Notes under the pieces: model-generated
The model's database searches: none
What the model was told of the DNA's origin: nothing
The model's input: the letters and a program-made list of their open reading frames with translations, nothing else
Made by a program: the position numbers and the translations under genes
Origin: Baffinella frigidus
Lineage: Eukaryota; Cryptophyceae; Cryptomonadales; Baffinellaceae
Direction of reading: 5' to 3'
DNA length: 23,246 nucleotides
NCBI GenBank assembly: GCA_026770585.1
Contig: MU646309.1
Coordinates: 742,045-765,290, forward strand
Shown: positions 1 to 19,871 of the stretch, piece by piece
How positions within the stretch are numbered: the first letter of the stretch is position 1
Layout of the letters: each line of letters begins with the position of its first letter

Positions 1-346
1 AAACCCTAAACCCCAAACCCCAAACCCCAAACCCCAAACCCCAAACCCTCAACCCCAAACCCTAAACCCTAAACCCTAAACCACAAACCCTAAACCACAA
101 ACCTCAAACCCCAAACCCTAAACCCCAAACCAGGTACCGCGCCACTGTGCAACGCCTCTCCTTCTCCGGACTGGAGGTCTGACCTCCTAAACCCTAAACT
201 CTAAACCCTGAACCCTGAACCCCAAACGCAGCGCCAAGGCGCCAGGTTTTGTGGACCTTCAACCCTAAACCCTAAACCCCAAACCCTAAACCCTAAACCC
301 TAAACCCTAAACCCTAAACCCTAAACCCTAAACCCTAAACCCTAAG
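1..346. repeat. Telomere / subtelomeric CCCTAAA tract
   Basis: Arrays of CCCTAAA mixed with CCCCAAA, CCCTCAA and CCCTGAA variants at 1-130, 184-230 and 259-346, broken by two short unique pieces (about 131-183 and 231-258). The C-rich strand reads inward from base 1, as expected for a left chromosome end. The repeat is the plant/algal TTTAGGG type. The outermost block is the most degenerate and the inner block (259-346) the most regular, so the window may begin just inside the true terminus. Confidence 0.9.
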
Positions 347-460
347 CCCTCTCTCCACCACCATTTTCGTCTCTCCACCACCACCACCACCACCACCACC
401 ACCACCATCTTCGACATCGCCCTCTCCCTCCCTCTCCACACCCTTCCCAGTGCCCCCCCA
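347..460. repeat. (CCA)n microsatellite and C-rich spacer
   Basis: A run of CCA triplets at about 373-407 follows a shorter CCACCACC block, inside TCTCCC-rich sequence. The long open frames here only translate this simple repeat (polyvaline on the minus strand), so no gene is called. Confidence 0.8.
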
Positions 461-11715: not shown

Positions 11716-12108
11716 ATGACCCCCCTGCGCATCGCTCTCGCGGTCTCCGTCCTCCAGGTGCTCACGACGACTGCCCAGGCCTGGGCTCCCTCTCCGTTGC
11801 TCGCGGGACCCATCGGCGGGCTCTGCATCACCGCTTTCAGACGACCACGGGGGCCATGGTGCCGTGCTTGCGCGGAGACCGGCAGCACAGCATCAGGCAT
11901 CGAGGGGAGCGACGAGATTCGGGCGAGCAGGCGCTCTGCAGTCGCGGTCGCGGTCCTCCTCGTCCTGTCTCCGGGGGAGGGTGTGCACGCGGCCTCGCCG
12001 GCGCCTGTCAAGGCGCGAACGGAGGAGAAGTTGCCGTATAAAAACACCTTCACTAAGACTGCCTCGGGACTGCAGCTGCAGGACGTGCGCGTCGGAACTG
12101 GGCCGCAG
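11716..12108 (+). CDS. FKBP exon 1: bipartite plastid presequence, Tat signal, domain start
   Basis: 131 codons, phase 0 end. The start ATG was chosen because MTPLRIALAVSVLQVLTTTA begins a clean signal peptide. Ends GGGCCGCAG|GTTGG inside V-G-T-G-P-Q. Reading on through the donor enters a GA microsatellite, so an unspliced reading gives an Arg/Glu repeat tail that is an artefact. Confidence 0.88.
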
Positions 12109-12148: not shown

Positions 12149-15100
12149 AAGAGAGAGAAAGAAAGAGATGGAGAGAAAGAGAGGGAGGGAGAGAGAGAGA
12201 GAGAGAGGGAGCTGGACAAAGGCTTTTGGGTACGTCCAGCGAAATACACCTTCCGTCACGAACACGGTGGTGGGGGAGTGCGGCGCGTCAGGGCAGAAGC
12301 AGGGAATGGTTTTGCTGCAGGGTGCGGGCTGGCTGCGCACCTGCCGAAGAGCACGCTGTGCTCCTTTCTCCCGTGGCGCCGAACCAGGGCTTCTGCGAGC
12401 GTGCTCCCGCCCACTAGCCCTCCGAGGTGGCTCAAATATTGCCTTGGGACCTTTTAGATTTGCCTTGACAGCGGAGCGGGGTCGGATTCGACCCCGCTAG
12501 GTCAAAAGTTGACACATTTTCAGGGGAAAATCAACTTTGGGGAACATGTTCCAGAGCACAATTTGAGCCACCTCGCAGGGCTGGTGGGCGAAGGCGCTGC
12601 GCAGTTTTCATGCCAGTTTCGCACTCCGTGTTCCCGCGAAGGCTGCGCAGTTTTGATTCCGGCTTCGCACACCTCCAGGTCGAGACGGGCAGCCGCGTGA
12701 CGTTCAACTACGTGGGGCGCCTCGCGGGTCGCCAAGGTTCCCACCCGCAACCCGTGCCAGCTTATAACCGGGTCGGGTACTGAGTAATTTTCAGCTAAAC
12801 CGAAGAAAGCTCTTCGGTATCTCCCGTCAGGAATTCGAGGTCCCTAGGGTTTCCTACCGTAGGGTCATAGGAAAGATTTTTTTTTGAAATAAAATACCCG
12901 AATCCTTGCAAGGATCCGGTATAAGCTGCTTCGGGTTGGCGCCTCGCGGACCGGCAAGGTTCCACCAACCACCAGCCCTTGGAGGTGGCTCAAATAGTGC
13001 TCTGCAACATTTTTGATTTACCTTGACATCGGGGTCGGATCCGACCCCGATGCAAGGTAAATTCGAAGACCTCCCAGGGCACTATTTGAGCCACTTGGGA
13101 GGGCTGGTGGAACCCTCATGGAAAGACCAAATCGTCGACTCTCAGACCTCTGGTTAAATCGTCGACTTTCAGACGATTTTGTAAACAATAAGTTGACGAT
13201 TTTGTGGGGGTGTTGACTTTCTCAAACCGATTAATAAATACATTGTGTGAGATAAAACCCTGACCCTCGGCACAACCACGGCAGCAAGGAAGCCGTTCGA
13301 AGACACAGCGCAGGACAACGCTGACCCTCCTCACAACCCTGCCCCCCCCACCCCTGACCCTCCGCACAAGCATAGCACCCCACGCCAGATTCTTGGAAGG
13401 GGTTGGCAAAAGTCAATTTCCCCTGAAGGCAGTGGTTTTCAAAAGTCAAAGCCCTATCCTGTAAGGTTCTAAAAAAATCAACCCCCTCCTGGGCTCAGGC
13501 GTGGGGAGACGTTATCTCAGAGCAAGTGTTTTAGAATTTGGTTTCCTAAAGTCAACTCCCCCATAACTCCGTCAACTTATGGATGCCAGGGCAGCCGTTC
13601 GAGGACACAGCGCAGGACAACGCCCCGGACCCGTTCTAAGGGTGTCCGGTTAGTACTGTCACGTCCGAAATTAGTACCGGGCTGTAAGAAGGCGGTACAA
13701 GAAGTTGCTACCGTCACGTCCAATCCATGCGTCCATTTATTGTACATCGCATTTTGGTACGTAGAGTGAAGCAAGATTTCGCACGCATGGCACCAGGGAA
13801 GCCGTTCGAGGACACAGCGCAGGACGACGACCCCATCCGCGTCGAGCTTGGCAAGACCCGTATCATCAAGGTGCCTCTCTCTACCTCTGCCTTTGTAAAA
13901 CTAGGCCCGCCATAAAACACATGTAGAGCAGAAACTCCGGGTGATAGACTCAGGGTTGGTTGGTTGGCTGAAACAGATTTTTTTATTCACGCACCGAAGT
14001 GGGGAGGCGACACGAGACAAGAAGATGCCGAAAGGTCACCTACCCAGAGTCGTATATCACCAAGTATACAACGTATACCAAGAATAAAAGGGCAACTGCA
14101 ACGCGGTTATGGCGAGCCGAGGCAAGACCCGCATCATCAAGGTGCCTCTATCTAGTCTATTCCTAAACCCCAAACCCTAGACCTTGACCCTAAACACCTA
14201 GCTCTGTCTCAGTCCATCCGGGCTTGCCAAGTTTACGCAGGCAGAGGTAGAGTACCTGGAGGTCAATCTTCTCCAGCCCGTGCTCACCAACGCCCGAATG
14301 GACTGAGACAGATGAAAATTTGAATTTCGAGGGGGAAAACGTCATCACGTCCGCTTAAAACGTTGTTGCTCTCAGGTTCTCAGGATCTCAGGATCTCGTT
14401 GTTGCTCTCAGGTTCTCAGGATCTCAGGATCTCAGAATTGGCCAAGTCTTTCCGCATTGGCTCTGGCCCTCCCGTTGGAATGCATCAAGATTCTGAGAAT
14501 CGGTGAAAATCTGAGAAACTCCGAGAATCAGGGAAAGCAAGTAGAACCCTGCCTCCTCGGGGAAGGAGGAATCCATTGTGATCATGCACCACGCCAGAGC
14601 CCAGGAGTTTTTAATTTATTTTTTAGAACCTCACAGGATAGGACTGTTGACTTTTGAAAACCACTGCCTTGAGGGGAAATAGACTTTTGGCAACCCCCTC
14701 CAAGAATCTGGCGTGGCAAGTATCGACGCAGAGGACTCTTATCTCAGAAACGGAATTCTAAAATTCGGTTTCTTAAGTCAATTCCTATACAAATTCGTCA
14801 ACTTATTATTTTCTCTATGCATAAGTTGACATATTTGCAGGGAATTGACTTAAGAAAACGAATTTTAGAATCCCTTTTTTGAGATAGACTCTCTCCCTAC
14901 CATATCGTGCGAGCCAACGGAAGAGAGTGTCGTCATTTAATTCTCTCTAGGACTTCAAGTCTCTAAAGGACTTAATTCAATTCTCCCTAGGACTGTTAAT
15001 TTATTTGAATCGTGGTCAGGACCGCATCGCCGTGACAGACCACTCGAGGCTGGAAGTGGGACTATTTTAAATGTGGGTTTCTTAAATTTAGTACCAGTCA

Positions 15101-18100
15101 CGGGCATGCTTGGTCACGTATCTCAGGTTATAACTTGAAAAACGTGACCAAATGCCCCTATTTATGTGAAAATTACTACACATTTTTTTCCCCTTTACTT
15201 GTAAAAGAATGACCATTTTAAAATAGTCACGTTTCTAGCCTCGAGTGGAGAGGGGCAGATTTTTTCTTGTAAATCGTGTGCCGAGCCGCGTCCAACCACA
15301 CAGCGGGCTTCGAAGGGATGTCGAATAACTCCTTAGCGATAAGGCCTAGGACCCTACGGTAGGCACTCCGTAGGGACACACGGGGGGTTCCTACGGATAA
15401 GGTAACGGAAACTTGGGCTCTCAGAGCCCGAAACTCCCTTCGAAACCCGCTATGTGGTAAGACCACCGGCAGCTGAAGAGAGAGATGTGGCGCAGGGGCT
15501 AGAGGAGGGGCCAGAGGGGATGCGGTCCATCTAAACGACTCCGGTACAAAGTGGGATTCCTATCGCTGGTAACGTGACCAATCTGCCCCGGGTAACCAGG
15601 GGCTGGAGGAAGGGCTAGAGGGGATGCGGGAGGGGGGCAAGCGGCGCCTGCTGATCCCCTCGGTGCTGGGGTACCAAGATAAGGAGGTGCGCACCACGCC
15701 CGGGCACTCGAAACATCCACGTTTGACATCTTAGGAAAATGCCTTGAATTCTTAAGTCAACCGCGTCAGATCTGACGCGGATAAGGCGTCGGTTTCCCTC
15801 CACCATTCTGGCGTGGGATGGGGGTCTGTTAGGTCCTTCATGTCATTTAGGGTTTGATTTCTCCCAACATAGGCGAACACCTCGCGCTTCCGCAGAAAGG
15901 ATCTGCAGGGAAAACGTTGTTTGTTTTCGGACTGCGTTCCGACTGTTAATTTGTTTTAATTATGTTAATTTATTTCAATTTCGCTCTCCAGTGCTGAAGC
16001 TCGCGGGGACAGGAGACAGGGGACATGACCCGAGCGTCCGATGTTGACTTAGCATCGATGTTGACTTAGAATCGATGTTGACTTGACTTAGAATCGATGT
16101 TGACTTACGTGAATGAGGGAAAGTTGACGTGCTCCTTGCATGGGTTGCGGCCCACACAATCACGAATCGTTCCGCTTGCATGCGATGCATGCGGAACGTG
16201 CACCGAGATTCATCCGAGAACATGTTTAATTCAAAATTAAATGGCCTATCAAACCGGATTATGGCCCCAATTAAATTTACTTCGGGCCCTATTTAACCTT
16301 CGTCCAACTCCTACGAACAAATATGGATTCAGTTTCTTTTAAATTAAACATGTCCCCGGATTAAGTTATGCCGGTTCAGTTGCGACCCACACGTTCTGGT
16401 GCCCCTTGCATGCGACGCGTGGGGTACGTGCCCCGAGTTCATCTCGGAAGATAACTGAATCAGTTCCTTTTCAGAGGAGGTTGAATAGGAGAAATCAGTT
16501 AGGGCATAGTAAATTGAATTAGGCCTCCTAATTAAATACAAACGCCACTTACGGAACTGATTCAGTTATCTTTCGAGATGAGAGTCATGCGCACACATTC
16601 CGGCGACCGCCCCTACGCCTGCAGCACCTGACATTCTGTGGGGCGCAAGTAACGCTGGGGTGGAGCTCATCCGGGAACATCATTTAATTAAAAGAAAATG
16701 GGCAACAAAATTTACTACACAATTGCTTTACTATTACTAGTATGAGCCTGATGTGTAGTAAATTTCGTTGTCCGTTTTCATTTAGTTAAAATGATGTTCC
16801 CGGATGAGAGCAGGAGGGGCCGATCCCTCGAAGCTTCGGAAACCGCCAGCGGCTCTACTCCACAGTCCTCAACAAGGTTTCTCCCCTTTTTTCTTCTTTT
16901 TTTCCCCGTCTTCTTCTTCTTCTTCTTCTTCTTCTTCTTCTTCTTCTTTATTACCCTCAGAAAAGAACTCGAGAGGTCCCCCAGCCTTTTGAAAAGTGAT
17001 CAACTTACTACTACTCTCATCCCGCGATGTGGCGGGCGGGCTTGCCCCTTTCCCACACAACATACCAGCCGAAACCCGAAACCCTACCCCCCTAACCACA
17101 TGTAGAGAACATACAGCATGATATAAGCGCGTAGAGTGTGCGTGACCTCCCTCTACTTAGGAGCGAACGGTGCCTTCTCGAACCGGCCCATCTAAACGAT
17201 TCCCGTACAAAGTGCAGATCCTTTATCCTGTAACGTGACCAATATTGCCCGGATATCCGGGCGCGTCGGGCACGACGCACGTGTAAGTAGCTAGGTTTAT
17301 CTGGGGAAACCTAATTTTCTTTCATTTGATGGTAATGAAAATTACTACACAATTCGTTCTTACTAGTCATATTAAAAAAATATGTAGTAATTTTCATTGC
17401 CATCAAATGAAAGAAAAATAGGTTTCCCTTGATAAAGGTCCTGCCAAACACCGCCTCCTCCGCTGCCGAGCGACTTTGGCACGAAATCCAAGCCGAGGTC
17501 GAAAATCGACCTTGGCTTTTCCGTAGGCACCCCCTATGTCCCTACGGTATTGAATACGTAGGGCCTATGGATTACGTTTAGATGGACTGTTCCCTTCTCG
17601 CTCGGCAGCGGTGGGGGGAATGCATTGTGCCTTTCCAGGCTCCACACTGTTCCACGCCAGGTTGATCGAGGGATACCGACGCCTTATCCACGTCAGATCC
17701 TGACGTCGTTAACTTAAGTATTCAGGGGATTTCACTTGCAAGATGTCAAAAGTGGATCTTTCGAGTCCTCTGGCGTGGACTGTTCGGCCACTTAGCAGCG
17801 ACCGAAGATATTTTCCCCCGGATTCTCGGGGGAAATTCCGGTTGGAATCCATAGCAATGGATAAGATTTCAGTACAAATCGTTTAGATGGACAGCATCCG
17901 TGAAGACCTCGGTGGCTGCTAGGTGGGCGCCCGTGCTCCCGGACCAGATGGCGTTTTGCAGAGACCTCCTGCGACTGGCTCGTGCAGGTTTTTTTTTGCG
18001 GTGCATGTGCGCAGCCGTCGAGAGGGGGCATGCACTCAGAAGCGGGGGGTGCCTGAAACGTAGCCTCCCGGGCTGGGTCCTTTGCTCCATGCGGCAGTGT

Positions 18101-18374
18101 GTGTGAGCCTCTCTCTCGCTCTCTCGCGCGCTCTCTCTCTCCCTCTCTGTCTCTCTGTCTCTCTCTCTCTCTCTGTCTCTGTCTCTCTCTTCATCACTCT
18201 CAGCCATTACTCTCAGACTCGGGCGTGCTAGGGGTACCAAGGGAAACCCCTTGCATCCTTCAGTCAACCACGTCAGATCTTACGTGGATAAGGCGTCGGG
18301 TTCCCTCAATCAATCTGGCGTGGTGGCGGCCATGTTGATGTCGATACAGGCTTGGCGGAGAGCAGGCAGCAGTG

Positions 18375-18407
<33 letters not shown>

Positions 18408-19283
18408 TGAGAGATAGAGATTGAGAGAGAGAGAGAGAGAGGGAGGGAGGGAGAGATTGAGAGAGAGAGAGAGAGACAGAGAAATTAAGACAGAGAGATA
18501 TGACGTGGCAGGTGCGCACGGAGCGCGAGCGAGAATCCACTTTTGACATCTTTGAAGGGAAACCCCTTGCATCCTTAAGTTAACCACGTCAGATCTTACG
18601 TGGATAAGGCGTCGGTTTCCCTCAAAGCAATCTGGCGTGGCAGGTGCGCACGGAGCGCGAGCGAGCAGCGCTGGGCGCCGACATCGCCGGGGTTGCTCCC
18701 CTTCCCACACCCACTTAGCAGCGAGGCAGCGAGCGAGGACCTTTTTCCCTTGCAGCCACCGGGGGCTTCACGGATACAGTCCATTTGAACGATTTGTACT
18801 GGAATGTTATCCGGGGCGGGGGTTGCTCACCCGCCCTCCCAACTAACTAATGTACTAACTAAGTAGCTAACGTGGGGCGGCCGTGCGTTGCTACATGGGA
18901 TATGAGTGGTACCACCCACGCACAACCCAACCACGCCCCACTTAGCAGCGAGCGAGGACTTTTTCACCTCGAATTGAAGGCAAAATTCCGGTCAGGTTCC
19001 AGGGCAATGGATAAGATTCTAGAATAAATCGTTGAGATGGACTGTATCCGTGAAGCCCCCGGTTGCTGCTCAGTGGCTCCCAGAGGTGCATTTGAGCCAT
19101 TATCTCCCATAGGTAATTGGAGCCATTCTCTCCCAGAGGTGATGGAATTGGAGCCATTTGGAAGCTCTCACCCTCCTCTCACCTCTCCCCGACTTGCGTC
19201 TGTGCTACCGGTACCCGGTTCTTGAGGCGAGGGTTGAAGGTTCAGGGTTCAGGGTTCAGGGTTTAATATTTAGGGTTTAGGGT

Positions 19284-19322
<39 letters not shown>

Positions 19323-19844
19323 GGTTTAGGGTTTAGGGTTTAGGGTTTAGGGTTTAGGGTTTAGGGTTTAGGTTTTAGGGTTGGGGGTTGGCAGCGCTCC
19401 CCGGAAGAGGTTGCATGGCCAAGTTCTGCTTTCTGGATGGCGTTTGGACGGAGAGAAACGTTTCTCCCGCATGCCCCGGATATCCGGGGGGGAAGGAACT
19501 CGGCCGCTGCTAAGTGGGAGACCTATGGGCCCCTCTAGCATTCTCGTGTTGCCAGGCAGAGCTAGGTGGTGTGTGGGTAAGACCTACCGCTTAGCAGCCA
19601 CCGGGGGCTTCACGGATACAGTCCATCTAAACGATGTGTACTGGAATCTCATCCATTGCCCTGGAACCTAACCGGAATTCCGCCTTGCATTCAAGGCGAA
19701 AAAGAACCCGGCTGCTGCTGAGTGGGCGTGCAGGATGGTGTCGTTCTCTCAACTTGACACGCGGGGCAGGTTGTGCTACTAGACGTGGAGGTGAAGCGCG
19801 TGCGGCCACCCACCTCTGTCGCCTCTGCCGCCGACCCCGACTGA
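11716..19844 (+). CDS. Thylakoid-lumen FKBP-type peptidyl-prolyl cis-trans isomerase, six exons
   Basis: Proposed join: 11716-12108, 12679-12736, 13797-13870, 15600-15686, 18644-18691, 19770-19844. It totals 735 nt, 244 residues plus TGA, with every phase consistent. The N-terminus has a hydrophobic signal ending AQA, then WAPSP: a bipartite plastid presequence with an aromatic at the cleavage point. Residues about 73-97 (ASRRSAVAVAVLLVLSPGEG, then VHAA) are a twin-arginine thylakoid signal. The FKBP domain runs from about residue 115: GLQLQDVRVGTG, VTFNYVGRL, PFEDT, VELGKTRIIKGLEEGLEGMR, KRRLLIPSVLGY, ending VVLLDVEVKRV. Tyr26, Phe36 and Tyr82 equivalents of FKBP12 are kept. Trp59 is Leu (KGLEEG) and Phe99 is Leu, as in many lumenal FKBPs, so catalysis may be weak and a chaperone or assembly role possible. 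The exon 5-6 join is the least certain; a further small exon could be missing. Confidence 0.85.
12116..12212. repeat. (GA)n microsatellite in FKBP intron 1
   Basis: GAGA tract with AAAG and GGGA interruptions starting 7 bases after the splice donor. It produces long low-complexity frames in all readings. Confidence 0.9.
12411..12587. mobile_element. MITE-like family M, copy 1
   Basis: CCACTAGCCCTCCGAGGTGG...CCACCTCGCAGGGCTGGTGG, with outer CGC / GCG extending the match. Inner palindrome GGGGTCGGATTCGACCCC. Sister at 12969-13110. Confidence 0.85.
12679..12736 (+). CDS. FKBP exon 2
   Basis: 58 nt encoding VETGSRVTFNYVGRLAGRQ plus one base of the next Gly. Contains the conserved Tyr of the FKBP core. 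Acceptor CACACCTCCAG; donor CAAG|GTTCCC. Confidence 0.88.
12758..12928. mobile_element. MITE-like singleton P
   Basis: CAGCTTATAACCGGGTCGGGTA...TACCCG...CCGGTATAAGCTG. Outer CAACCCG / CGGGTTG may extend the ends to 12746-12938. The centre carries the CCTACCGTAGGGTCATAGG module. It lies exactly between exon 2 and its echo. Confidence 0.75.
12937..12968 (+). repeat. Echo of FKBP exon 2 3' border
   Basis: GGCGCCTCGCGGACCGGCAAGG|TTCCA repeats exon 2's end and donor (GGCGCCTCGCGGGTCGCCAAGG|TTCCC) with three or four mismatches. Confidence 0.85.
12969..13110. mobile_element. MITE-like family M, copy 2
   Basis: CCACCAGCCCTTGGAGGTGG...CCACTTGGGAGGGCTGGTGG with inner GGGGTCGGATCCGACCCC. The flanking GGTTCCACCA / TGGTGGAACC also pair, so the GTTCCA donor of the preceding echo could itself be element-derived. 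Confidence 0.85.
13120..13256. mobile_element. Family I, half/rearranged copy
   Basis: AAGTTGACGATTTTGTGGGG, GTTGACTTTCTCAAACCGAT and TGTGAGATAA match the right half of the 23092 element. The left is rearranged, with two AAATCGTCGACT words. Confidence 0.65.
13281..13320 (+). repeat. Echo 1 of FKBP exon 3 5' border
   Basis: GCAAGGAAGCCGTTCGAAGA then CACAGCGCAGGACAACG matches the first ~36 bases of exon 3 with a few changes. It is bracketed by TGACCCTC.GCACAA tandem words (about 13260-13370). Confidence 0.85.
13380..13504. mobile_element. MITE-like family C, copy 2 (reverse)
   Basis: CCACGCCAGATTCTTGGAAG...GGGCTCAGGCGTGG; interior AAAGTCAATTTCCCCTGAAG is the complement of the 14589 copy. Confidence 0.85.
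13512..13582. mobile_element. Family I, left half copy
   Basis: TTATCTCAGAGCAAG...AAGTCAACTCCCCCATAACT..GTCAACTTAT, ending at the position where intact I elements reach their loop. Confidence 0.7.
13584..13629 (+). repeat. Echo 2 of FKBP exon 3 5' border
   Basis: ATGCCAGGGCAGCCGTTCGA then GGACACAGCGCAGGACAACG repeats the acceptor and first ~38 bases of exon 3, with few changes. Confidence 0.88.
13797..13870 (+). CDS. FKBP exon 3
   Basis: 74 nt. Completes Gly, then KPFEDTAQDDDPIRVELGKT and RIIK, phase 0 end. Contains the equivalent of the FKBP12 Phe36/Asp37 pair (here Phe-Glu) and Val55-Ile56 (Ile-Ile). Acceptor GGCACCAG, donor ATCAAG|GTGCCT. Chosen over the two upstream echoes because only this copy runs the full length with correct phase. 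Confidence 0.88.
14115..14155 (+). repeat. Echo of FKBP exon 3 3' border
   Basis: GGCAAGACCCGCATCATCAA|GGTGCCTCTATCTA repeats exon 3's last 20 bases and the intron start (GGCAAGACCCGTATCATCAA then GGTGCCTCTCTCTA). Confidence 0.88.
14162..14195. repeat. Short telomere-like tract
   Basis: CCTAAACCCCAAACCCTAGA and following CCCTAAAC; four to five degenerate CCCTAAA units directly after the exon-3 echo. Confidence 0.65.
14203..14312. mobile_element. Inverted-repeat element carrying a coding-like insert
   Basis: 21-bp ends TCTGTCTCAGTCCATCCGGG(C) / GCCCGAATGGACTGAGACAGA with one mismatch. The 68-bp interior is not palindromic. On the minus strand it reads V-G-E-H-G-L-E-KIDLQ, then a GTACTC donor, resembling the units at 3884 and 4118. 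This suggests a captured gene fragment (Pack-MITE style). Confidence 0.65.
14361..14432. repeat. 36-bp tandem repeat x2
   Basis: CGTTGTTGCTCTCAGGTTCT..CAGGATCTCAGGATCT is perfectly repeated (14361-14396, 14397-14432), with internal CTCAGGAT subrepeats. Confidence 0.9.
14589..14716. mobile_element. MITE-like family C, copy 3
   Basis: CCACGCCAGAGCCCAGGAG...AAGAATCTGGCGTGG, interior GTTGACTTTTGAAAACCACT. Confidence 0.85.
14738..14887. mobile_element. MITE-like family I, copy 2
   Basis: CTTATCTCAGAAACGGAATT...TTTTGAGATAG; arms TTAAGTCAATTCC / GGAATTGACTTAA. Intact. Confidence 0.85.
15040..15248. mobile_element. MITE-like family H, copy 3
   Basis: CCACTCGAGGCTGGAAGTGG...TTTCTAGCCTCGAGTGG. Interior TTTAGTACCAGTCACGGGCA, GGTCACGTATC, ATTACTACACA. 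Confidence 0.9.
15296..15457. mobile_element. MITE-like family D, copy 3
   Basis: CCACACAGCGGGCTTCGAAG...CTTCGAAACCCGCTATGTGG with central CCTACGGTAGGC / CCGTAGG. Confidence 0.85.
15491..15525 (+). repeat. Echo of FKBP exon 4 5' border
   Basis: GCAG|GGGCTAGAGGAGGGGC then CAGAGGGGATGCGG repeats the acceptor CAG and first ~30 bases of exon 4. An A-derived half element (15526-15596, CCATCTAAACGACTCCGGTA ... AACGTGACCAAT) separates them. Confidence 0.88.
15600..15686 (+). CDS. FKBP exon 4
   Basis: 87 nt, 29 codons: GLEEGLEGMREGGKRRLLIP then SVLGYQDKE. Core strands of the FKBP fold, with the Tyr82 equivalent in LGY and Leu in place of the usual Trp59. Acceptor GTAACCAG; donor AAGGAG|GTGCGC. Confidence 0.9.
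15694..15816. mobile_element. MITE-like family B, copy 2 (reverse interior)
   Basis: CCACGCCCGGGC...CATTCTGGCGTGG. Begins seven bases after the exon 4 donor. Inner GTCAGATCTGACGCGGATAA. Confidence 0.8.
15829..15945 (+). repeat. Family K subgroup copy
   Basis: TTAGGTCCTTCATGTCATTT, TCTCCCAACATAGGCGAACA, CGCAGAAAGGATCTGCAGGG; right end decayed. Confidence 0.6.
15946..16210. other. AT-rich tandem words and ATCGATGTTGACTTAGA repeat
   Basis: Repeated GTTAATTTRTTTYAATT words at 15946-15982. 16041-16107 has four copies of a ~17-bp ATCGATGTTGACTTAGA unit. About 16144-16210 is similar to 16378-16440 (both contain TTGCATGCGA.GC), flanking the G element. Confidence 0.6.
16211..16363. mobile_element. 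MITE-like family G, copy 2
   Basis: CATCCGAGAACATGTTTAAT...ATTAAACATGTCCCCGGAT. About 153 bp, AT-rich. A diverged duplicate of its flank lies on each side. Confidence 0.75.
16440..16580. mobile_element. MITE-like family F, copy 4
   Basis: CATCTCGGAAGATAACTGAA...TTCAGTTATCTTTCGAGATG; interior GGCCTCCTAATTAAAT. Confidence 0.9.
16584..16628 (+). pseudogene. Possible C2H2 zinc-finger fragment
   Basis: Reads V-MRTHSGDRPYACST then a stop codon. It matches the His-containing end and linker of a C2H2 finger (RTH-[TS]-G-[ED]-R-P-Y-x-C). A possible preceding piece (LACDA.GTC, about 16190 and 16410) is cut off by F and G elements. Likely a relic; the resemblance could be chance over so few residues. 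Confidence 0.35.
16666..16808. mobile_element. MITE-like family G, copy 1
   Basis: CTCATCCGGGAACATCATTT...AAATGATGTTCCCGGATGAG, inner AAATTTACTACACA / TGTGTAGTAAATTT. Best-preserved G copy. Confidence 0.9.
16870..16950. repeat. (TTC)n microsatellite
   Basis: About thirteen TTC units at 16910-16948 after a T/C-rich lead. The poly-Phe, poly-Ser and poly-Glu frames are artefacts of it. Confidence 0.9.
16951..17297. other. Spacer and A-derived half element
   Basis: 16951-17186 shows nothing firm. 17187-17270 (CCATCTAAACGATTCCCGTA...AACGTGACCAATATTGCCCG) is the same A-derived half found at 15526-15596. Confidence 0.5.
17298..17433. mobile_element. MITE-like family G, copy 4
   Basis: TATCTGGGGAAACCTA...TAGGTTTCCCTTGATA, with very long matched arms CATTTGATGGTAATGAAAAT / ATTTTCATTGCCATCAAATG and TTACTACACA at the loop. 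Confidence 0.9.
17449..17614. mobile_element. Inverted-repeat singleton
   Basis: CACCGCCTCCTCCGCTGCCGAGCG / CGCTCGGCAGCGGTG arms, with inner nested GAGGTCGAAAATCGACCT and CCGTAGG...CCTACGG modules like those of D. Confidence 0.65.
17652..17778. mobile_element. MITE-like family B, copy 3
   Basis: CCACGCCAGGTTGATCGAGG...CCTCTGGCGTGG. Flanked on both sides by ACTGTT, a plausible 6-bp target-site duplication. Confidence 0.85.
17788..17926. mobile_element. MITE-like family A, copy 3
   Basis: CCACTTAGCAGCGACC...GGTGGCTGCTAGGTGG; centre CCCCCGGATTCTCGGGGG. Nine bases from the B element. Confidence 0.85.
17927..18104. other. Spacer, nothing recognised
   Basis: GC-rich, includes a T8 run; no gene or inverted repeat seen. 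Confidence 0.35.
18105..18191. repeat. (CT)n microsatellite
   Basis: CTCTCT/CTGTCT tract, similar to 8363-8461. Confidence 0.9.
18218..18241 (+). repeat. Echo of FKBP exon 4 3' end
   Basis: CTCGG-GCGTGCTAGGGGTACCAAG resembles exon 4's TCGGTGCTGGGGTACCAAG. It directly replaces the missing left end of the truncated B element that follows. Confidence 0.6.
18242..18323. mobile_element. Family B, copy 4, left end missing
   Basis: GGGAAACCCCTTGCATCCTT...CAATCTGGCGTGG, nearly identical to 18551-18640, so one of the youngest pairs. Confidence 0.8.
18379..18490. repeat. (GA)n microsatellite
   Basis: GAGAGA tract with GATTGAGAGA and GGGAGGGAGG interruptions. Complementary in composition to the CT tract 190 bp upstream, so a large fold-back is possible. 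Confidence 0.9.
18507..18533 (+). repeat. Echo of FKBP exon 5 5' border
   Basis: GGCAG|GTGCGCACGGAGCGC then GAGCGAG is identical over 27 bases to the acceptor and start of exon 5. The B element 18534-18640 lies between. Confidence 0.92.
18534..18640. mobile_element. Family B, copy 5
   Basis: AATCCACTTTTGACATCTTT...CAATCTGGCGTGG. Its right terminus is followed by CAG|GTGCGC, so it abuts the acceptor AG. The left terminus lacks the full CCACGCC end. Confidence 0.8.
18644..18691 (+). CDS. FKBP exon 5
   Basis: 48 nt, VRTERERAALGADIAG, phase 0. The donor GCCGGG|GTTGCT is inferred from the echo at 18811-18840, where similarity spans this junction. Corresponds to the loop between the LGY strand and the last beta strand. 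Reading on gives a stop at the A-element end (CACTTAG). Confidence 0.7.
18711..18810. mobile_element. Family A, rearranged copy 4
   Basis: Starts CCACTTAGCAGCGAGGCAGC, but the interior jumps to CCACCGGGGGCTTCACGGAT and TTTGTACTGGAATGTTAT with no matching right end. It looks like two A halves joined. Confidence 0.65.
18811..18840 (+). repeat. Echo of FKBP exon 5 3' border
   Basis: CCGGGGCGGGGGTTGCTCAC..CCCTCCC resembles GCCGGGGTTGCTCCCCTTCC at 18687, across the proposed donor. Confidence 0.6.
18938..19076. mobile_element. MITE-like family A, copy 5
   Basis: CCACTTAGCAGCGAGCGAGG...CCGGTTGCTGCTCAGTGG, reverse interior orientation relative to 22797. Confidence 0.8.
19080..19165. repeat. Short tandem repeat, GAGCCATT..TCTCCCA unit
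   Basis: Three degenerate copies of TTGGAGCCATTCTCTCCCAG with AGGT between them. Confidence 0.65.
19229..19382. repeat. Interstitial telomeric array, TTTAGGG orientation
   Basis: Degenerate TTCAGGG and TTGAGGG units grade into eight near-perfect TTTAGGG units (about 19322-19380). Orientation is opposite to the terminal array, and the tract lies inside FKBP intron 5. Confidence 0.88.
19383..19586. other. Spacer with right half of an A element
   Basis: 19475-19519 matches the A right arm (CCCCGGATATCCGGGG...GCTGCTAAGTGG). The remainder is unassigned and is the best place to look for a missing small exon. Confidence 0.5.
19587..19725. mobile_element. MITE-like family A, copy 6
   Basis: CCGCTTAGCAGCCACCGGGG...GGCTGCTGCTGAGTGG. 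One end-base substitution; inner CGCCTTGCATTCAAGGCG. Confidence 0.85.
19770..19844 (+). CDS. FKBP exon 6 (last)
   Basis: 75 nt: VVLLDVEVKRVRPPTSVASA then ADPD and TGA. V-L-L-D-V-E-V is the closing beta strand of the FKBP fold, with Leu in place of Phe99. Acceptor GCGGGGCAG. A stop in frame 15 nt upstream shows that splicing is required. Confidence 0.88.
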   Translation, partial: VVLLDVEVKRVRPPTSVASAADPD

Positions 19845-19847
19845 GCA

Positions 19848-19871
19848 CCTCTGCCGCCGACCCCGACTGAG
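19848..19871 (+). repeat. Echo of the FKBP stop-codon region
   Basis: CCTCTGCCGCCGACCCCGAC then TGAG is an exact 24-base direct repeat of 19822-19845, placed right after the stop. Confidence 0.92.

Follow-up and report, generated by a model that had tools for sequence, protein, structure and literature searches.

Direct copies of exon edges beside the splice junctions of an FKBP gene and of other genes in Baffinella frigidus

In the cryptophyte Baffinella frigidus, exon edges were found to be copied into the adjoining introns as direct repeats of tens of bases, which include the splice junction itself. The copies (echoes) were studied in a window of 23,246 nt that carries an FKBP gene (contig MU646309.1 of assembly GCA_026770585.1, positions 742,045 to 765,290, designated C7:742045-765290 in the genome searched, which has 382 Mb in 1,364 contigs) and in further genes of the same genome. 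They are frequent, have the orientation of the exon, lie upstream of it when they repeat its start and downstream when they repeat its end, and range in identity from about 81% to 100%. Exon-edge copying is a widespread trait of this genome and is not special to the FKBP gene, and no single element family is responsible for it. As its cause we favour a direct duplication in place of junction-spanning segments, linked to insertion, as after staggered breaks, an explanation to which we give an even chance.

Echoed borders of the FKBP gene

The FKBP gene consists of seven exons with twelve internal borders, and its six junctions are backed by a spliced product. All features of the window are located on the forward strand unless stated otherwise. 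Each border then known, with 45 bases on either side, was compared with the surrounding 3 kb. A strong echo was found at five of the twelve internal borders, with identities of 88–94% over 26 to 44 bases. The end of exon 2 (12679–12736) recurs at 12938–12963, where 23 of 26 bases match the true border at 12716–12741. Exon 3 (13797–13870) is echoed at both borders: its start has a near copy at 13586–13626 (38/41, true border 13793–13833) and a far copy at 13277–13320 (39/44, true border 13786–13829), and its end is repeated at 14121–14154 (32/34, true border 13850–13883). The start is copied for exon 4 (15600–15686) at 15493–15525 (30/33, true border 15597–15629) and for exon 5 (18644–18691) at 18498–18533 (34/36, matching 18630–18665). 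The first bases of the exon 5 copy resemble the right end of the M1 repeat family described below.

These six copies had been listed in the initial annotation of the window and were all recovered as strong matches. Its wording that nearly every border is duplicated is too strong for five of twelve, and two of the copies it proposed scored near background. For the end of exon 4 (proposed at 18218), the match at 18225–18241 comprised 17 columns with a gap and a raw score of 25, and for the end of exon 5 (proposed at 18811), the match at 18816–18831 reached 14/16 and a raw score of 22; unrelated matches scored 17 to 24. A copy claimed in the stop region (19848–19871) matches 19822–19845 exactly, but here a 26-base unit is duplicated head to tail and no element separates the copies. 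Likewise, locus L007 has a copy of an FKBP coding exon's end that extends to the stop codon.

At the remaining borders, the comparison with the surrounding 3 kb gave only GA-repeat matches for the end of exon 1 and no match for the start of the last exon. Near the start of exon 2, a near-tandem repeat (12636–12673 and 12588–12627, 82.5% identity) ends five bases before the border. A 10-base repeat common to the end of exon 4 and the start of exon 5 is probably due to chance, since a further exon lies between them.

This further exon was revealed by P0001, a protein derived from a contig of 1,027 bases. The contig was taken as transcript-like because this length is too short for the introns concerned. 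By eye, P0001 agrees with the FKBP model at all aligned residues, from VHAAS to the end, apart from 21 extra residues. These are encoded at 16814–16876 by an exon of 63 bases (EGPIPRSFGNRQRLYSTVLNK), which is absent from the model of the initial annotation; neither of its borders has a spanning repeat in the count of eye-placed borders given below. The echoes are absent from P0001, which supports the splicing of the true copies, for the FKBP gene only. The annotated observation of copies of tens of bases across splice junctions was thus borne out together with the use of the true copies.

Exons 2 to 5 are supported by the spliced frame, the border comparison and P0001, and the last exon, which contains the stop codon (19770–19844), by the spliced frame and P0001. 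The spliced frame also reads through exon 1 (11716–12108), in which a putative start codon, signal peptide and twin-arginine-like stretch were recognized, and it is open across all six exons first modelled. The best named match of the protein was from Guillardia theta, with Hemiselmis, Hanusia and Rhodomonas lower in the list. Cryptophyte genomes are described as sometimes exceeding 500 Mb and as often containing more than 50% repeats (PMC12220804).

Exon-edge copies in other genes

For the analysis of unrelated genes, 40 short kinase profile matches (up to 210 bases) were selected roughly by E-value from 108 rows, in two sets of 20. An edge copy within about 450 bases in the exon's own flanks was found for 22 of the 40 exons (11 of 20 in each set, counted by eye for the first), compared with 32 of 1,559 (2.05%) when exons and flanks were mismatched. 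The control rate is an upper bound, as it includes related kinases and the overlapping loci L113/L144 and L117/L141, with at least one true exon. None of the 40 exons had an inverted edge copy in its own flanks. The copies sought beyond the FKBP gene are therefore frequent elsewhere in the genome, and the pattern recurs on many contigs.

The exon-anchored set also comprised FKBP paralogues and four chaperonin genes. In its 60 exons, counted without the second kinase set, 53 direct copies were detected in 27 exons, compared with one inverted copy of 17 bases. A direct copy was present in 11/20 kinase, 9/27 chaperonin, 3/6 FKBP and 4/7 paralogue exons.

A total of 85 borders was examined for repeats spanning the junction, namely 70 of 80 kinase borders (for the other 10, no position could be assigned by eye), the 12 of the FKBP gene and 3 of the 32 internal borders of CCT1, which were chosen without a rule and two of which have a repeat. 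Spanning repeats were found at 35 of these borders, 49 repeats altogether. The borders were set by eye with the repeats already in view, and a script shifted two of them by one base. The start of FKBP exon 4 was left out of this count, as well as of the FKBP exon count of 3/6, by a composition filter. All border-spanning repeats follow the same side rule: all 25 start copies are upstream of their exon, and all 24 end copies are downstream.

In ungapped alignments, the border repeats comprise a median of 35 exon bases and 6 intron bases, the intron part being the shorter one in 46 of 49. As identities reach 100%, some of the events must be recent. An example is locus L015, where both borders of one kinase exon are copied, with 100% and 98% identity and no significant homology past the junction. 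The pyrimidine content of the upstream sequence failed to tell the original from the copy (0.542 for true borders, 0.557 for copies and 0.517 for random positions). In the window introns and loci L105 to L144, no pyrimidine-rich stretch precedes the acceptors (0.50–0.54, compared with 0.52 at random), and GTR was found at 11 of 19 donors.

A wider sample, consisting of loci around copies of the repeat families M1, D and B and around FKBP paralogues, was scanned for locus-unique direct repeats. Of the 77 loci (210.7 kb), 54 contained such repeats, 184 pairs altogether. Interspersed unique repeats are GC-rich (0.596 vs. 0.529 in the class of 100–300 bases) and have more open frames, which does not apply to tandem ones. 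The motif MAGGTR was identified in 32 of 203 unique repeats and in 7.1% of matched segments, although pairs within a locus are not independent. The donor motif showed no asymmetry in its position within the repeats. At locus L083, which holds a CCT6-like gene, a possible exon start is present in about six consecutive copies, most of them preceded by CAG.

DNA between the copies

The 37 inserts at borders have a median length of 121 bases (10th to 90th percentile 66–221) and mixed content. The initial annotation placed an inverted-repeat element or its remnant between most echoes and their exons. This holds for exon 2 and exon 5, and a repeat family of another type was found beside the near echo of exon 3. 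The exon 4 echo (15493–15525) is separated from its exon by a short segment of 71 bases only (15526–15596, no strand assigned), which is 77% identical to 17184–17264. The segment between the end of exon 3 and its echo (13884–14110, no strand assigned) was not established as an element, its sole copy among the sampled loci being itself.

Between the end of exon 2 and its echo lies a copy of the inverted-repeat family D (12741–12938), which occurs in at least 40 places in the genome. The window copy is short of seven bases on the right, where the end CTGGTGG is missing. Elsewhere, both 8-base ends of D are exact in 21 of 29 fetched copies, and 14 of those 21 have identical 2 bp on each side. Family M1, also with inverted repeats and at least 40 places, is represented at 18535–18640 by a copy which has lost about 21 bases of its left end and whose right end directly adjoins the exon 5 CAG. 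Both 9-base ends of M1 are exact in 20 of 29 fetched copies elsewhere, again with identical 2 bp on each side in 14 of the 20. Two D copies (L052 and L065) were seen by eye to have flanking repeats of 10 and 14 bases.

The insert beside the near exon 3 echo belongs to family B (13625–13779), which has no obvious inverted ends and gave at least 42 matches. Of the 23 listed matches extending to its right end, 17 start inside 13625–13779, a putative shortening; some other matches share only about the first 100 bases.

A direct repeat straddles 14 of 36 distinct B copies, 9 of 29 copies of family G and 8 of 28 of family K, compared with 83 of 888 random spans. M1 (3/36) and D (2/32) are straddled no more often than these random spans. 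The queries for B, M1, D and K were cut from inserts; with the query copies excluded, B is straddled in 13/35 and K in 7/27 cases. Loci L048 and L078 carry one and the same B copy, which was counted once, and loci L001 and L006 overlap. With 14 of 36 copies between long direct repeats, family B resembles a retroelement with unusually long target duplications.

In general, the inserts are not enriched in repeats. Their mean repeat coverage, determined against the sampled loci only, was 0.414 for 217 pairs, compared with 0.422 for random segments. Inverted repeats at both insert ends were found in 18 of 241 pairs, a set which includes satellite arrays, and in 0.7% of shuffled pairs. Of 141 pairs, 13.5% have the element-like sequence CCAC after the left copy and 8.5% have GTGG before the right one, compared with 5.5% in each case. 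Within 12 bases of the splice side, CCAC was present in 2 of 37 border inserts, close to the random rate of 3.7%.

Telomere-like repeats were rejected as the source of the inserts, since the flanks of the copies are hardly enriched in them (0.15–0.21 vs. 0.153). Degenerate AAACCCT repeats of this kind are scattered over window positions 1–350 and 19230–19382, many fetched introns and other DNA.

Origin of the copies and related systems

The direct-only orientation and the side rule argue for a duplication in place. A junction-spanning stretch, usually of 20–90 exon bases and between a few and a few dozen bases of intron, would have been duplicated in the same orientation, and intron-like DNA now usually separates the two copies by some 65–220 bases. 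The copy joined to the remaining exon would be kept in use, while the other one would become intron sequence and decay. The duplications may arise with the insertions, most simply from a break or integration with offset nicks whose ends are filled in, and DNA of repeats, microsatellites or mobile elements may be captured between the filled-in ends. An event inside an exon would destroy it, and an event across a border would leave a whole exon with its splice site. Border events would survive and stay recognizable because the exon remains whole.

The arrangement expected after staggered breaks was found in the data: direct repeats bracket the insert, direct copies outnumber inverted ones by 53 to 1, and all 49 border-spanning copies lie in place. 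Of the two ideas in the initial annotation, repair of breaks fits these observations better than entry of elements at junctions, the mechanism being one that we infer from the arrangement of the copies. With regard to the strength of this explanation, we consider it evenly balanced between right and wrong.

Several results weigh against it. All comparisons come from one genome, and no event is seen before and after. Tandem or near-tandem repeats are common, with 108 of 413 unique pairs having a gap of less than 30 bases. When copies are sorted by exon halves instead of borders, the 25 and 24 that obey the side rule are joined by six exceptions among 55. With gapped alignment, 16 of 49 pairs show further intron-side homology that exceeds the 95th percentile for mismatched pairs. 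A second set of 49, which differs slightly from the first, has such homology in 8 of 18 young and 7 of 31 older pairs (p = 0.12). The same would be expected if a longer tandem duplication had eroded later. The evidence from ungapped alignments that the copies stop sharply at the splice junction, which looked strong, is thereby weakened, and an anchor at the junction is suggestive only.

The same applies to the preference for borders. An echo was found in 31 of 80 border windows, compared with an unrelated direct repeat in 66 of 472 intron tiles (p = 8e-7). For age matching, border repeats of at least 94% identity were compared with intron tiles of at least 88%, since an intron pair decays on both sides. 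The preference was then not significant (10/80 vs. 37/472, p = 0.19). The raw excess can be explained by survival at borders and slower decay.

The main rival explanation, which is possible but less probable, is that junction-spanning segments underwent ordinary tandem duplication, after which insertions split the duplications and the intron side, not being under selection, eroded. It accounts for direct orientation and the side rule without further assumptions. The stop region of the FKBP gene is an exact tandem duplication without insert, and at locus L023, a 61-base tandem duplication was recognized by eye, one copy of which contains M1. The intron-side homology of young and older pairs given above points in the same direction. 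In contrast, 10 of 18 young pairs, including the 100% identical pair of L015, are without significant homology beyond the junction. Moreover, the gaps of non-overlapping unique repeats peak at 100–200 bases, and 77 of 413 unique pairs overlap or abut. The serial order of echoes at L115 and L135 was rejected as evidence against insertion, as small indels explain it.

Rather unlikely is the targeting of splice junctions by elements with long target duplications, in which one end of the insert would lie at the splice site and the other 20–90 bases inside the exon. It would account for the short intron part of the ungapped repeats, a measurement for which the borders were set by eye with the repeats already known. 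Three elements show, by eye, one intact end at or within 5 bases of the splice signal and a shortened far end: the D copy at exon 2, the M1 copy at exon 5 and a copy of family E in L016. The frequent straddling of B, G and K copies and the excess of CCAC and GTGG at the copy edges are also in its favour. However, neither the repeat content of the inserts nor CCAC at the splice side exceeds the random level, and intact M1 and D copies mostly show 2 bp repeats instead of long duplications. Intact element ends abutting both copies were not found at the window copies of D and M1, each of which is without one end. Together with the age-matched border preference, the gapped alignments and the 18 of 241 inserts with inverted ends, this speaks against the suggestion of the initial annotation that inverted-repeat elements enter at splice junctions.

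An improbable variant makes the exon itself the target. An exon-sized structure, such as RNA of the exon paired with the gene of origin, would mark the DNA, with one cut just outside the splice junction and the other 20–90 bases inside the exon. Repair would then duplicate the exon edge and insert DNA, so that introns would grow outward from the exon borders. If true, this would account for the many copies that end a few bases past the junction, for their occurrence on either side of the exon and for the unrelated inserts.

Templated filler in end joining, by which nearby exon sequence would be copied into an intron break, is very improbable. Some inserts are, by eye, patchworks of repeat pieces and satellites, as filler would be. 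Such filler comes in both orientations, and it was rejected because of the direct-only orientation of the copies, with no inverted copy at the 40 kinase exons, and the side rule. Chance repeats or assembly errors can be dismissed almost entirely in view of the control rate of 2.05%, the identities of about 81–100% and the same pattern on many contigs.

Intron lengthening has mostly been inferred from old and eroded sequence, and the echoes are a visible record of growth. As a conserved exon stands beside a freely decaying copy, each event can be recognized, oriented and roughly dated. The mark is present at 35 of 85 borders, and the full identity of some copies with the exon makes the process look recent and accessible to strain comparison. 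A long duplication can also render an insertion at an exon edge harmless.

Among the titles and abstract openings surveyed, no description of exon-edge copies of tens of bases was found. Direct repeats also bracket the inserted DNA in the intron gain by staggered breaks described for Daphnia, where fill-in of offset nicks explains the repeats (PMC3443670), and short direct repeats are stated to flank 43% of the gained introns (review, PMC3443670). There, the repeats are short and the introns new, whereas in B. frigidus 20–90 bases of exon edge are duplicated and existing introns grow. In tandem genomic duplication, an exon segment is likewise duplicated directly beside itself, but the new intron arises between AGGT copies (PMC3443670); here, the copies lie beside an existing border, and intron-like DNA usually separates them. 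How offset breaks can lead biochemically to direct duplications is shown by the small tandem duplications at breaks with 3′-overhangs, reported for human and mouse cells in an abstract that links them neither to splice junctions nor to introns (PMC8355091). Offset-break repair and tandem duplication are known in principle (PMC3443670, PMC8355091), but in the literature passages and titles surveyed, neither was described with copies as long and as dense at the borders of existing exons.

The intronic elements of Amoebophrya share direct repeats over exon-intron boundaries and inverted repeats inside, but the direct repeats are given as 3–5 nt (PMC7789003). Introners likewise are mobile DNA in introns, and some families have inverted ends and target duplications near splice sites; the element itself is the new intron, and the duplications are 3–9 bp in some families (PMC9860276). 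The difference in scale noted in the initial annotation is in agreement with these values. In B. frigidus, the FKBP introns carry different families, insert content differs among other borders, and the splice signal and much of the exon edge are part of the duplicated stretch, as reflected by the median of 35 exon bases.

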